A stretch of 52,737 nt of DNA from an uncultured Ruminococcus sp. (lineage in GTDB: Bacteria > Bacillota > Clostridia > Oscillospirales > Ruminococcaceae): NCBI GenBank assembly GCA_947169885.1, contig CAMVRM010000019.1:1-52737 (forward strand), read 5' to 3'. The translations under genes were made by a program, and so were the position numbers. The notes below the pieces were generated by a model. The model searched no databases. It saw only the letters and a list, made by a program, of their open reading frames with translations, and was not told where the DNA came from. Shown piece after piece: positions 36,624 to 44,573 of this stretch. Each line of letters opens with the position of its first letter. Positions within the stretch are counted from its first letter, which is position 1.

Positions 36624-37781
36624 ATGAGTTATAAAAATATAAACACCGCACTTATCCACGGCGGCATCTCAACGGACGAACGTACAGGAGCAGTTAACGT
36701 TCCGATCTATCAGACTTCGACCTTTAAGCAGGACGGCTTGGGAAAATTGAGAGGCTATGAGTATTCCCGAACAGGCAATCCCACCCGTGAAGCACTTGAA
36801 GCGCTCATCGCAGAACTGGAAGGCGGTTATGCAGGTTTTGCTTTTGCGAGCGGTCTTGCGGCTGAAACAGCGGTTCTGAGTCTGCTTCATTCGGGTGACA
36901 GAGTGCTTATCTCCTCTAACGTTTACGGCGGAACGTTCAGACTTTTAAATCAGGTGTTTGACCACTTCGGAATAAACTACACGATCTCCGACACCGAGGA
37001 CATCGCCGCATTCGAGCGTGACATAACACCCGATGTCAAGGCAGTGCTTGTCGAAAGCCCTGCAAATCCGCTCATGACCGTCACCGACATAAGAGCCGTT
37101 GCTGAAAAGGCTCACGAACATGGTCTGCTGGTCATCGTGGACAACACTTTCATGACACCTTATCTGCAAAGACCTCTTGAACTCGGCGCTGACATTGTTG
37201 TTCACAGCGCAACGAAGTACTTAGGCGGTCACAGCGATGTTGTTGCAGGTCTTGCGGTAACTAAGACGAAAGAACTTGCCGAGAAGATCGCTTTCATACA
37301 GAACTCGACAGGCGGCGTGCTTCCACCGTTCGACAGTTTTCTTCTTATAAGAGGTATAAAAACGCTGGGCGTGCGGCTGGACAGACACGTTTCAAACGCA
37401 CTTGCGGCGGCGGAATTTCTTTCAAAGCACAGCGCCGTCAAAAGCGTCCACTACCCGGGGCTTGTGACCGACAAGGGCTATGAGGTCAACAAACGTCAGG
37501 CGAAAAACGGCGGCGTTATGATCTCGTTCGAGCTGACAGACGGTCACGACATCGAAAAGTTCTTCGAGAGCTTAAAGCTTGTGACGCTTGCGGAAAGTCT
37601 GGGCGGCGTTGAGTCGCTCGTGTGTCACCCGTCAAGCATGACACACGCATCTATCCCCGAGGAGATACGCCGCAAAGTCGGCATAACCGATGGTCTGATA
37701 AGGCTTTCGATCGGTATCGAGGATATTGATGACATTCTTGATGACATTGAACAGGCGATAAAGGCAAGCGAGGTAAGTTAA
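36624..37781 (+). CDS. mccB: Cystathionine gamma-lyase / homocysteine gamma-lyase (MccB-like)
   Basis: A 385-residue PLP enzyme that should cleave cystathionine to cysteine, 2-oxobutyrate and ammonia. Family hallmarks: [25 protein letters not shown], the Schiff-base lysine K198 in [12 protein letters not shown], and [21 protein letters not shown]. MetB and MetC share this fold; the choice of MccB rests on the partner gene mccA starting one base after its stop, the same pair as B. subtilis yrhA-yrhB. It is the first gene of the operon that runs into the nitrogenase-like genes. GAAAGGAAAGTGAGCAAAA provides the ribosome-binding site. Confidence 0.85.
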
Positions 37782-37782
37782 A

Positions 37783-38688
37783 ATGCTTTATGAAAATATG
37801 CACGAGCTTATCGGGCACACACCGCTCGTAAGGCTCAGGAATATGGGGGTCTCCCCCGAAGTAGAAATTTATGCGAAACTGGAAATGTACAATCCCTCGG
37901 GAAGCGTTAAAGACCGCATCGGAGAATATATGATAGCCGCTGCGGAACGTGAGGGAAAGCTGAAAAAAGGCGGTACGATAATCGAAGCCACCGCAGGCAA
38001 CACGGGACTTGGCATTGCATTCGCAGCACTTAACAAAGGTTACAGAGTGATATTCGCAGTCCCCACAAAATTTTCTGCGGAAAAGCAGGCACTCATGCGT
38101 GCGCTGGGTGCAGAGGTCATAAATACTCCCCGTGAGGAGGGAATGCTGGGCGCAGTCAGAAAAGCTGAGGAACTGAAAAGTCAGATACCCGATTCAGTCT
38201 CGCTGGGGCAGTTCACCAATCCGAACAATCCGCTTGCTCATTACGAAACAACGGGCAGGGAGATATGGGAGGACATCGGCGGCAGAGTAACGCATCTTGT
38301 GGCAGGCGCAGGCAGCGGCGGAACTTACACAGGCATTGTGAAGTATCTCAAAGAGCATGACCCGAAAGTGCAGGGCGTTCTCGCTGACCCTGAGGGTTCG
38401 ACTATCGGCGGCGGAGAGCATTTCGACTATAACATCGAGGGCATCGGAAACGACTTTATCCCCGACACCATGGACATGGCGCTTGTTGACAGCGTTATTA
38501 AAGTGAACGATAAGGAAGCGTTCCATGCGGTAAGAGAGCTTGCAAAACATGAAGGGATAATCGCAGGCTCGTCCTCGGGAGCGGCTATGTCAGCGGCGTT
38601 AAAGCTTGCAAGCCGACTTGAAAAGGGCGTTATAGTCGCAGTTTTCCCCGACCGTGGCGACCGCTATTTCAGCACAGGACTCTTTTGA
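37783..38688 (+). CDS. mccA: Cystathionine beta-synthase / cysteine synthase family enzyme (MccA-like)
   Basis: A 301-residue fold-type II PLP enzyme with the PLP lysine K43 in SGSVKDRI, phosphate loop GAGSGGTYTG and C-terminal GSSSGAA. The asparagine loop reads EATAGNTG, as in MccA (YrhA), whereas CysK usually has EPTSGNTG. This favours condensation of O-acetylserine or serine with homocysteine to cystathionine. With MccB it would complete reverse transsulfuration from methionine sulfur to cysteine. It is translationally coupled to mccB. A hairpin-forming spacer of 114 bp separates it from the next gene. A plain cysteine synthase cannot be excluded. Confidence 0.82.
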   Translation: MLYENMHELIGHTPLVRLRNMGVSPEVEIYAKLEMYNPSGSVKDRIGEYMIAAAEREGKLKKGGTIIEATAGNTGLGIAFAALNKGYRVIFAVPTKFSAEKQALMRALGAEVINTPREEGMLGAVRKAEELKSQIPDSVSLGQFTNPNNPLAHYETTGREIWEDIGGRVTHLVAGAGSGGTYTGIVKYLKEHDPKVQGVLADPEGSTIGGGEHFDYNIEGIGNDFIPDTMDMALVDSVIKVNDKEAFHAVRELAKHEGIIAGSSSGAAMSAALKLASRLEKGVIVAVFPDRGDRYFSTGLF

Positions 38689-38802
38689 AATAAGAAATAA
38701 GAGTTAAGAAAGAAGAAAGATAAGAGATAATAAGCGTTCAGCGTGAGCAATGCTTTCTTATTTATAATTTATAATTTCTTATCTAATAAAAGTGGTGGTT
38801 TT

Positions 38803-42631: not shown

Positions 42632-43972
42632 ATGTCCGGACTTATAGAGCAAGAGCGTTACACCTGTGCGATCGGTGCATTGCAGACGGTGGTCGCTATA
42701 CCGAGAGCCGTTCCGATACTTCATTCGGGTCCAGGCTGCGGAGTAATGATAAAGGGTTTTTTCGAGCGTTCGGCAGGCTATGCAGGCGGCGAGACTGCAC
42801 CTTGTACGAATTTCAGCGAAAAGGAAGTCGTGTTCGGCGGAACTGACAGACTGCGCAATATCATCAAGAACACCTACAAGGTGCTTGACACCGACTTGCA
42901 GGTCGTAGTTACGGGCTGTACAGCAGGCATCGTGGGTGACGATGTGGCAAGCGTTACCGATGAGTTTCTTTACGAAGAGGACAGACCGATAGTCCACGTT
43001 GAAACCTCGGGCTTCAAGTCGAACAACTATGTTTCGCACTCGGCAGTCGTAAATGCCATAATCGACCAGTATGTCAGCCGTTTCGAGGACGATAATCCTG
43101 CACGCAGCGATAAGAATTTAGTAAACGTCATCGCTTCTATCCCTTATCAGGATCAGTTCTGGAAAGGCAATCTCAAAGAGTACAAGCGCCTTATCGAGGG
43201 CTTGGGACTTAAAGCGAACATTCTTTTCGGACCTCATTCGGGCGGCGTTAAGGAGTGGCAGACGATACCGAAAGCCAACTTCAACGTGTTCATTTCCCCG
43301 TGGTACGGCGAGCCTATCGTGAAGAATCTGGAACGCCGTTACAAACAGCCGTTCTACCGTTTTGGCTATATGCCTATCGGTGCGAACGAGACAACACGTT
43401 TCCTGAACGGTTTGCTGGAATATGCGCTGGAACAGGGAGCGGAGATAGACGAGCGCAGGGCAAGGGCGTTTATCGCCGAGGAAGAAAAGGCTTACTATGA
43501 GGAGCTTGACAACCTTGCAACATTCCTGCTGGAGTTCCGTTACGGTCTGCCGAGTTATGTTCATATTCTTCACGATGCAGGCTATGTGACAGGCTTAACG
43601 AGATTTCTGCTTCACGAAACGGGTCTTGTGCCGAAGGAGCAGTTCATAGTCGACAACGTTCCGAAAAAGTATCAGGAGCAGATCGAAGCGGACATAAAGT
43701 CCACATCTGACAAGCGTGAGATACCTGTTTATTTTGATTCTGATGCAGGCGCAATGCAGGACGTTATCAGAGGGCTTTCACACAAGGGCAGAGGTCTTAT
43801 CATGGGAAGCGGCTGGGACAAGGAGCTTGCAGGCGAGATAGATGCAGACTTCCTGTCGATAGCCTGTCCGACACCTTACCGCATAGTGCTGACCACGAAT
43901 TATGTTGGCTACACGGGCGGTCTGCGTGTGATAGAGGACATCTACAACACAGCTTTGGCAAGCTATAAATAA
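42632..43972 (+). CDS. NifK-like subunit, probable methylthio-alkane reductase beta subunit
   Basis: The real start is ATG 42632, eight bases after AAAGGAG; upstream in-frame codons translate the hairpin. The 446-residue protein has the NifK-type P-cluster cysteines C12 (YTCAIGALQ), C36 (HSGPGCG) and C96 (VTGCTAGIVGDD), and the APCTNFSEKEVVFGG block. It is shorter than NifK (about 520 residues) because it lacks the N-terminal extension that clamps NifD, as in nitrogenase-like relatives. It should form an alpha2beta2 tetramer with the preceding gene product and share the P-cluster at the interface. Confidence 0.9.
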   Translation: MSGLIEQERYTCAIGALQTVVAIPRAVPILHSGPGCGVMIKGFFERSAGYAGGETAPCTNFSEKEVVFGGTDRLRNIIKNTYKVLDTDLQVVVTGCTAGIVGDDVASVTDEFLYEEDRPIVHVETSGFKSNNYVSHSAVVNAIIDQYVSRFEDDNPARSDKNLVNVIASIPYQDQFWKGNLKEYKRLIEGLGLKANILFGPHSGGVKEWQTIPKANFNVFISPWYGEPIVKNLERRYKQPFYRFGYMPIGANETTRFLNGLLEYALEQGAEIDERRARAFIAEEEKAYYEELDNLATFLLEFRYGLPSYVHILHDAGYVTGLTRFLLHETGLVPKEQFIVDNVPKKYQEQIEADIKSTSDKREIPVYFDSDAGAMQDVIRGLSHKGRGLIMGSGWDKELAGEIDADFLSIACPTPYRIVLTTNYVGYTGGLRVIEDIYNTALASYK

Positions 43973-44246
43973 TTCCTCGGGTTCTCGGGGTCCTCGGGCG
44001 GACGGGTCCTCGGGCGGACGGCTCATATCCCTCGCACGTAAGTTTGAGATAGACGTTAATTTGTGCGGCTCGGGGCTTTCATTTGATATGGGCTTTTGGT
44101 TTATTTTGGGTAGGCGTTTTTCGTCTGATATGGGCTTTTGGTTTATTATGTGTTGACGTTTTTTCGTCAGGGTAAATTATATATAAATGGGCGGGCTTGT
44201 CTCGCCTGTTTCTTTATAACGACAAATATAAGAACGGAGTGATATA
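43973..44246 (+). other. Spacer with two direct repeats before the second NifX-like gene
   Basis: GGTCCTCGGGCGGACGG is repeated in tandem at about 43989-44021. GATATGGGCTTTTGGTTTATT occurs twice at about 44086-44106 and 44127-44147. A weak promoter (TTGACG at 44153, TATATA at 44178) may serve the next gene. Confidence 0.4.
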
Positions 44247-44573
44247 ATGGCAAGGATAGCGATAGCAACAAGTGACGGCTACACGGTCAATGAGCATTTC
44301 GGGCAGGCAAAGTTCTTCCGTGTGTATGAGCTTGACGGCGGCGGTCACAGTTTTCTTGATGTGCGTGATGCGGTGGCAGCCTGTCAGCAGTCGCTGGGTC
44401 ACGACACAACACGCTTTGACAAGATCATCGAACTGCTCTCCGACTGCGATGCACTGCTTGTCAACAAGATAGGCGAGGGTGCGGCGGCGTATCTCATAAG
44501 CCGTGGAGTGCGTGTGTTCGAGGTCAGCGGAACTATTGATGCAGTTTTAGATAAGCTGGCTGAACAGTTTTAA
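44247..44573 (+). CDS. Second NifX-like cofactor-binding protein
   Basis: A 108-residue protein of the same PF02579 family as 38803-39174: MARIAIATSDGYTVNEHFGQAKFFRVYEL at the start and ALLVNKIGEGAAAYLISRGVRVFEV further on. The central insert AACQQSLGHD holds one Cys and one His. Two family members flanking one set of structural genes suggest separate roles, for example one carrying NifB-co and the other a maturing cofactor. It follows the NifK-like gene by 274 bp and ends the cluster. RBS: AACGGAGTGATATA. Confidence 0.82.
   Translation: MARIAIATSDGYTVNEHFGQAKFFRVYELDGGGHSFLDVRDAVAACQQSLGHDTTRFDKIIELLSDCDALLVNKIGEGAAAYLISRGVRVFEVSGTIDAVLDKLAEQF

Follow-up and report, generated by a model that had tools for sequence, protein, structure and literature searches.

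The subject of this analysis is a nitrogenase-like gene cluster in 52,737 nucleotides of DNA (the whole stretch is referred to as the window) from an uncultured rumen Ruminococcus sp., contig CAMVRM010000019.1 of assembly GCA_947169885.1, in which eight genes, mccB-mccA-nifX-nifB-nifH-nifD-nifK-nifX, follow each other on the plus strand at 36624-44573. The results suggested that the encoded enzyme most likely cuts sulfur from organic compounds rather than fixing N2. It is rather probable that the operon encodes an organosulfur C-S bond reductase similar to the methylthio-alkane reductase (Mar) of Rhodospirillum rubrum, which would give a thiol, probably methanethiol, to the O-acetylhomoserine sulfhydrylase MetY, with MccA and MccB passing the sulfur on to cysteine. 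The NifD and NifK proteins are not nitrogenase; in sequence trees they belong to a clade, called clade A here, that is the well-supported sister of Mar. The gene content and order were observed directly, and since the same order recurs in relatives, the row is more than chance:

36624-37781, plus strand: mccB-like cystathionine gamma-lyase, a Cys/Met pyridoxal 5'-phosphate (PLP) enzyme
37783-38688, plus strand: mccA/cysK-like PLP enzyme
38803-39174, plus strand: NifX-type cofactor-binding protein (first nifX), PF02579, start ATG at 38803
39150-40031, plus strand: NifB core, a radical S-adenosylmethionine protein, 272 bits to solved NifB
40077-40934, plus strand: NifH, nitrogenase-type Fe protein, TIGR01287 458 bits, above the cut-off of 394
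41055-42521, plus strand: NifD-like catalytic subunit of clade A, sister of MarD
42632-43972, plus strand: NifK-like catalytic subunit of clade A
44247-44573, plus strand: second NifX-type protein

The profile scores of the six nif-type genes correspond to NifX, NifB, NifH, nitrogenase component 1 (twice) and NifX, and the NifD and NifK proteins of the window lie far under the curated cut-offs of the NifD, NifK, AnfD, VnfD and NifE models. The ATG at 42632, with a ribosome-site-like AAGGAG ahead, was preferred over the GTG at 42518 as the start of nifK.

To place the catalytic subunits, 84,980 species genomes were scanned and at least 591 relatives of the window D were found, of which the best 80, all at least 60% identical to it, were kept. 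These 80 were mostly from Bacillota, together with Endomicrobium and another member of Elusimicrobiota, Treponema and other Spirochaetota, Synergistaceae and an Olsenella. A D-like match was present in 16 of the 197 genomes of the window's family, five of which (three genus codes) showed at least 93% identity. In the D tree, clade A was represented by 37 of its 86 rows, thinned at 83% identity, and the remaining rows were chosen by hand; L145_7, L055_1, L159_1 and L160_0 as well as partial D open reading frames (ORFs) were left out, and BchN, CfbD, AnfD, VnfD and IsrD were not among the rows. Clade A and the Mar clade were separated with a bootstrap of 100 each in both the D and K trees, and in the D tree clade A was the sister of Mar (support 99/96), with the window D not inside the Mar clade. 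The D and K of Endomicrobium proavitum, 71% and 64% identical to the window pair, fall in clade A as well. A Mar orthologue was rejected by these two trees. The initial annotation had named a methylthio-alkane reductase and proposed a NifD/NifK tree with MarDK as a check; this interpretation is partly supported, as the kind of enzyme is probably right, with the sister position and the same cluster ligands, and the name is too narrow, as the pair lies outside the Mar clade and the Mar residue His194 is replaced. The tree also places the pair in one clade with an enzyme reported as an N2 fixer, and that annotation mentioned neither this nitrogenase label nor the LacI-family regulator gene described below. 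Separately, a third gut clade of Mar-like DK pairs, clade C, was observed (L065 at 9846-12607, L066 and L068), in which the rows of L065 and L066 also contain a cysK-like gene, nifX and an ATP-binding cassette (ABC) transporter, the NMT1 type having been tested for L065; clade C keeps Trp195, has Arg-His in its two complete rows and is without Cys73.

The residues of the active site were compared in 86 clade A D rows (84 distinct), 77 from the genome scan and nine others, selected among 120 D-like ORFs for their similarity to that of the window, with Mar residue numbers from PMC12552129 checked on the PDB sequence. The scan relied on two peptide patterns, one including Trp195 and the other a P-cluster Cys, so that both positions are partly selected for; the Trp pattern cannot be the source of the 20 rows carrying Val at 194. 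The three P-cluster Cys, Cys73, Trp195, Phe199, Cys270, His375 and Arg428 were kept in 86/86 rows, and His429 in 85/86, with L073 as the exception; the three P-cluster Cys of NifK were kept in 78/78. The window NifD carries C, R and H at the hallmark positions Cys270 and Arg428-His429, its Cys257 and His416 corresponding to Cys270 and His429 of MarD. Where nitrogenase has Gln191 and His195, Trp and Phe occur in 86/86 rows, the window and E. proavitum included, and the column of the nitrogenase loop residue His442 is Gly in 84 rows (the window among them) and Glu in 2. At the Mar His194 position clade A has Ile (36 rows), Met (30) or Val (20), with His in 0/86 in comparison to 7/7 Mar rows, and the Mar Gln74 position is Thr (45, as in the window), Met (21), Gln (13), Ala (4) or Val (3).

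The gene neighborhood was evaluated by counting sulfur genes, defined as metY-, mccB- or mccA-like genes with at least 30% identity to the reference, in the 80 loci, 52 of which were at least 14 kb (long loci). A sulfur gene was found in 45 of the 52 long clade A loci, the nearest one lying on the strand of D in 45/45 at a median distance of 2135 bp, and a MetNIQ- or Ssu-type transporter gene was found in 35 of the 52. For the 35 long loci outside the Ruminococcus type, the counts were 29 for sulfur genes, 29 for the transporter and 32 for either (L133, one of the 35, gave no D ORF, and neither did L104), while for all 80 loci, short ones included, they were 57 and 43; L058 and L077 are one contig. 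A nifE-like gene was found in 0/80 clade A loci. For comparison, six true nif loci were counted as well, of which two spanned no more than 4 kb and 12 kb; sulfur or transporter genes were found in 0/6 and nifE in 5/6.

The control of the row was examined together with the region ahead of it, which holds the following features:

32076-33233: gshA, further upstream of metY
33279-33314: terminator-like hairpin between gshA and metY
33358-33369, strandless: distal metY operator GATAACGTTATC, a perfect palindrome
33463-33474: proximal metY operator GCTAACGTTATC, 105 bp from the distal one and 11 bp ahead of the -35
33486-33514, plus strand: promoter-like site of metY, TTGACC-17-TAAACT
33542-34840, plus strand: metY, O-acetylhomoserine sulfhydrylase type, TIGR01326 449.5 bits, below the curated cut-off of 495.1
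35110-35138, plus strand: promoter-like site of the regulator gene, 12/12 consensus
35184-36257, plus strand: LacI-family regulator gene, between metY and mccB
36272-36293, plus strand: terminator-like hairpin 3' of the regulator gene, separating it from mccB
36322-36333: operator GATAACGTTGTC, ahead of mccB
36339-36350: operator GATACCGTTATC, ahead of mccB
36409-36420: operator GATAACGTTATC, perfect, 114 bp from the proximal mccB-side operator
36523-36534: proximal operator GACAACGTTATC, 11 bp ahead of the -35 of the mccB operon
36546-36574, plus strand: promoter-like site of the mccB operon, TTGACG-17-TATCAT
44580-44623, plus strand: probable operon terminator 3' of the last gene, an inverted repeat with its right arm entering a T run (absent from the terminator scan's own listing)

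The terminator scan listed no plus-strand site within 36624-44573, and the row from mccB to the second nifX looks like one operon. The promoter-like and terminator-like sites suggest four separate transcripts, namely gshA, metY, the regulator gene and the mccB-nifX row. The best PDB chain for MetY is 7kb0_A, an O-acetyl-L-homoserine sulfhydrylase. Of what the initial annotation had described, the eight-gene row was borne out in coordinates and strand, and its joining of the reductase with reverse transsulfuration in one transcript stands for mccBA, which appear to share the operon, and not for metY, which would be transcribed separately. Likewise, metY as an upstream part of the system is supported by the shared operator, while gshA was rejected as a member, as a terminator-like hairpin lies between, no operator is present and gshA-like genes occur in 3/80 loci. 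A sulfur riboswitch was also rejected as the control mechanism after the Rfam search described below.

The operator shared by metY and mccB was observed repeatedly. In a census of the 22 loci carrying the regulator gene, in which GATAACGTTATC was searched with one mismatch allowed and shuffles as control, it was found ahead of 19/21 mccB, 8/12 metY, 1/22 lacI and 1/23 mccA genes tested and ahead of nifB, nifH and nifD in 0/22 each, with almost no matches in the shuffled controls; 21 of the 22 loci had it ahead of mccB or metY. In 20 of 30 site-bearing promoters, the two of the window included, the distance from the proximal operator to the start of a -35 box (5 or 6 matches) is exactly 11 bp, and neighboring operators are spaced by 114 bp in 11 cases ahead of mccB and by 104-105 bp in four ahead of metY. 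This layout looks like that of a regulon with looping or activation, metY, a separate transcript, seems to share control with the mccB operon, and we infer both that the LacI-family regulator binds GATAACGTTATC, the putative operator, and the direction in which it would control these genes. In the genome-wide search with one mismatch, all 22 sites outside the window were inside an ORF (short, doubtful ORFs in L171 and L177), thus a bare operator match means little and the informative signal is limited to the layout of operator, 11 bp and -35, which, with up to three operator mismatches and 4/6 in the -35, also gave chance-like matches inside genes in the background scan. One such layout with a 105-bp operator spacing was seen upstream of a row of genes on the minus strand of L171 (G000:C20:25500-38000, 1579-4815) for a transglutaminase-like protein, DUF4418, an FtsX permease and an ABC ATPase; related FtsX/ATPase genes, some with DUF4418, adjoin clade A in eight loci.

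The layout was further found upstream of an SsuABC-type transporter set in four of five close genomes. The set of the window genome lies on contig C43 and is 63% (binding protein), 61% (permease) and 66% (ATPase) identical to that of L105, which adjoins clade A genes; the permease is present in 5/5 close genomes. The operator ahead of the transporter, with strands checked, has two mismatches in G065 and one each in G192 and G158. A LysR-type regulator (L177, G000:C43:13600-19700, 2016-3002, minus strand) is divergent from the SsuABC set and is 58% identical to the LysR beside clade A in L093. In terms of sulfur physiology, six genomes (the window's, four close relatives and E. proavitum) were searched: 3'-phosphoadenosine-5'-phosphosulfate reductase was found in 0/6, by a search positive in 14/14 controls, and sulfite reductase in 1/6 (G065 only, and not the window's), by a search positive in 11/14 controls. 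With four of the five close Ruminococcus-type genomes and E. proavitum without a sulfite reductase match, sulfite as the product would be a dead end, while a thiol could be used.

The window genome has six PF00148 matches, this D/K pair and four on contig C33, and NifEN was not found in it, as the four C33 proteins reached no more than 66.5 bits with the NifE model (cut-off 505.1); each of the four close relatives also has six matches, of which four lie apart from the D/K pair. The C33 proteins belong to a second nitrogenase-like locus (L007, G000:C33:8000-27000, 6511-18519) with a TM1266-type regulator, HydE (TIGR03956 531 bits, cut-off 254.6), two NflHDK sets that are far from every named NifD/NifE model, and then hypF-, hypC- and hypD-looking genes.

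From the sequence evidence, we infer the reaction, substrate and product of the reductase as follows. The organosulfur compound would probably be imported by the SsuABC-type transporter of the same regulon. NifB would build the [Fe8S9C] cluster, the NifX proteins would carry it, and its insertion into NifDK would not involve NifEN. NifH would deliver ATP-driven electrons through the P-cluster to the catalytic cluster held by Cys257 and His416 of NifD, at which the C-S bond would be cut. The released thiol, probably methanethiol, and O-acetylhomoserine would be converted to methionine by MetY, and MccA and MccB would shift sulfur from homocysteine to cysteine; the presence of reverse transsulfuration genes beside MetY fits sulfur entering as methanethiol and then leaving methionine for cysteine. 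The LacI-family regulator would probably exert joint control over metY, the reductase operon and the transporter.

A number of results weigh against this explanation. The orthologue of the window enzyme in E. proavitum is reported to fix 15N2, the Mar residue His194 is Met in the window, so that substrate or chemistry may differ from Mar, and seven of the 52 long clade A loci (L094, L096, L118, L126, L133, L135 and L136) are without metY, mccB and mccA. The mccB-like protein scored 552.8 bits as gamma-lyase in comparison to 550 bits as gamma-synthase, both under the cut-off, and MccA and CysK were not distinguishable with the models used. The transporter site of the window genome itself carries three mismatches, the layout was not found in the stretch of G113 examined, one of the five close genomes, and Rfam at gathering scores gave no sulfur riboswitch, either in the window or in 23 related loci, of which 17 belong to clade A and six to clades B and C.

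The alternative that the operon encodes a group IV-A nitrogenase fixing N2, with the neighboring sulfur genes incidental or supplying cluster sulfur, is considered unlikely. It draws on E. proavitum, whose sole D/K pair (two PF00148 matches) is in the same clade and which is reported to fix N2 via its group IV enzyme (PMC9147875, PMC8399215, PMC11257099, PMC4995403) and to take up 15N2 without NifEN (PMC9147875, PMC4995403, PMC8399215), and on Heliophilum fasciatum, called diazotrophic and said to hold only group IV-type DK genes in PMC9147875. It draws also on NifH, which in the window is 78-81% identical to that of five true nif loci; in the NifH tree, which had three of the five as rows, these sequences are nested within the NifHs from clade A loci. 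The bit scores of the window NifH were 280 for the Mar-complex chain 9fmg_D in comparison to 465 for 1cp2 (C. pasteurianum). The NifH of E. proavitum is 49% identical to that of the window, so that two Fe-protein lineages serve clade A. Against N2 fixation, clade A, E. proavitum included, has Trp, Phe and Arg-His of Mar in place of Gln191, His195 and His442 (the missing His in E. proavitum NifD was already remarked in PMC4995403), and no nifE-like gene accompanies the 80 loci. The E. proavitum locus itself reads metY, NMT1/SsuA-type binding protein, permease, ATPase, nifD, nifK, nifX, mccB, mccA, nifB, nifX, nifH. In addition, R. rubrum Mar does not reduce N2 according to PMC12552129, and rumen N2 fixation is described as negligible, with a low nifH RNA/DNA ratio, in PMC6776011. 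No paper was found that joins the E. proavitum-type enzyme with methionine/cysteine genes, which is weak evidence, as the literature searched fell short of most subscription papers.

A strict Mar equivalent, which would convert 2-methylthioethanol, dimethyl sulfide and ethyl methyl sulfide to methanethiol with ethylene, methane or ethane, is a special case of the organosulfur reductase, so that the two overlap in probability, and in this narrower form it appears possible but doubtful from the sequences compared. The sister position, the same ligands, most pocket residues and the presence of MetY as thiol acceptor argue for it, but both His194 and Gln74 are changed in the window, and an ABC importer of the same regulon is more in keeping with a polar than with a volatile substrate. 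Moreover, L088, L106 and L137 hold Mar-type genes (in L137, K and a piece of D) side by side with the clade A pair in one cluster with mccBA and metY, suggesting different substrates. A sulfonate reductase similar to IsrBHDK of R. capsulatus, releasing sulfite, would agree with the binding proteins of the SsuA family (NMT1-type) that adjoin many members of clade A, but is very improbable given the dead end of sulfite in these genomes and the equivalents of Cys62, Cys154 and Cys275, all present in the window NifD and lacking in IsrD according to PMC11423573. Isr identity was rejected on these two points, with IsrD judged from the paper's description and not placed in the tree.

The thiol-releasing reductase remains the preferred explanation, and we lean towards extending it to the whole group IV-A clade, regarded as a nitrogenase on account of E. 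proavitum. Next to Mar, this clade would then make up another family of reductases acting on organosulfur C-S bonds, with a substrate, an importer and a regulon of its own; the N2 fixation reported would reflect a side reaction or a wrong assignment, and many of the nifH counts from gut and rumen would represent sulfur scavengers. A concrete role in sulfur metabolism would thereby be assigned to a nitrogenase-like clade that is widespread (Bacillota, Elusimicrobiota, Spirochaetota, Synergistota and an Olsenella among the loci compared) and of which the single member studied is recorded as an N2 fixer, and the question of whether a group IV enzyme can fix N2 becomes directly testable in the culturable Ruminococcus albus. 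Because the reductase uses a NifH of the kind found in true nif operons, nifH alone is no marker of diazotrophs in gut or rumen surveys, and surveys based on NifH would not separate this system from nitrogenase. Hydrocarbons may arise as by-products in the rumen if the thiol released is methanethiol.

Some further features were observed in and around the row. Inverted repeats at 38679-38793, 40933-41033 and 42529-42583, two of them rich in AAATAAGAAATAAG, occupy the gaps mccA/nifX, nifH/nifD and nifD/nifK, and could possibly be mobile or RNA-stability elements. The region is flanked by two secreted-type proteins with near-identical C-terminal sequence, at 46549-49752 (minus strand) and at an ORF end near 31700-31843 (plus strand).

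In comparison to known systems, the window shares with R. rubrum MarBHDK (group IV-C; PDB 9fmg, 9d9u) the D/K fold, the P-cluster Cys, the Cys270 and Arg428-His429 cluster site, Trp195, Phe199, His375 and a NifB-type partner, and methanethiol is reported to feed methionine synthesis in R. rubrum; it differs in a D that is 42% identical and in a sister clade, the replaced His194 and Gln74, a nitrogenase-type NifH, mccBA within the operon, two nifX and a LacI-type regulator gene. The R. capsulatus isethionate reductase IsrBHDK is likewise a group IV reductase in sulfur assimilation, but IsrD is without the three Cys equivalents, and the NifB of the window matches solved NifB while IsrB is reported as not NifB-like. 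The Mo-nitrogenase NifHDK with NifEN (groups I-III) has the same NifH sequence type, NifB, P-cluster Cys and Cys275, while the window is without NifEN, has Gln191, His195 and His442 replaced and has other neighbors. The group IV-A "NfaHDK" of E. proavitum is alike in D/K clade, residues (its D has the same Mar-type residues as the window) and the neighbors metY, mccB, mccA, nifB and nifX, and differs by a NifH of another lineage, an Ssu-type transporter inside the cluster and its reported N2 fixation.

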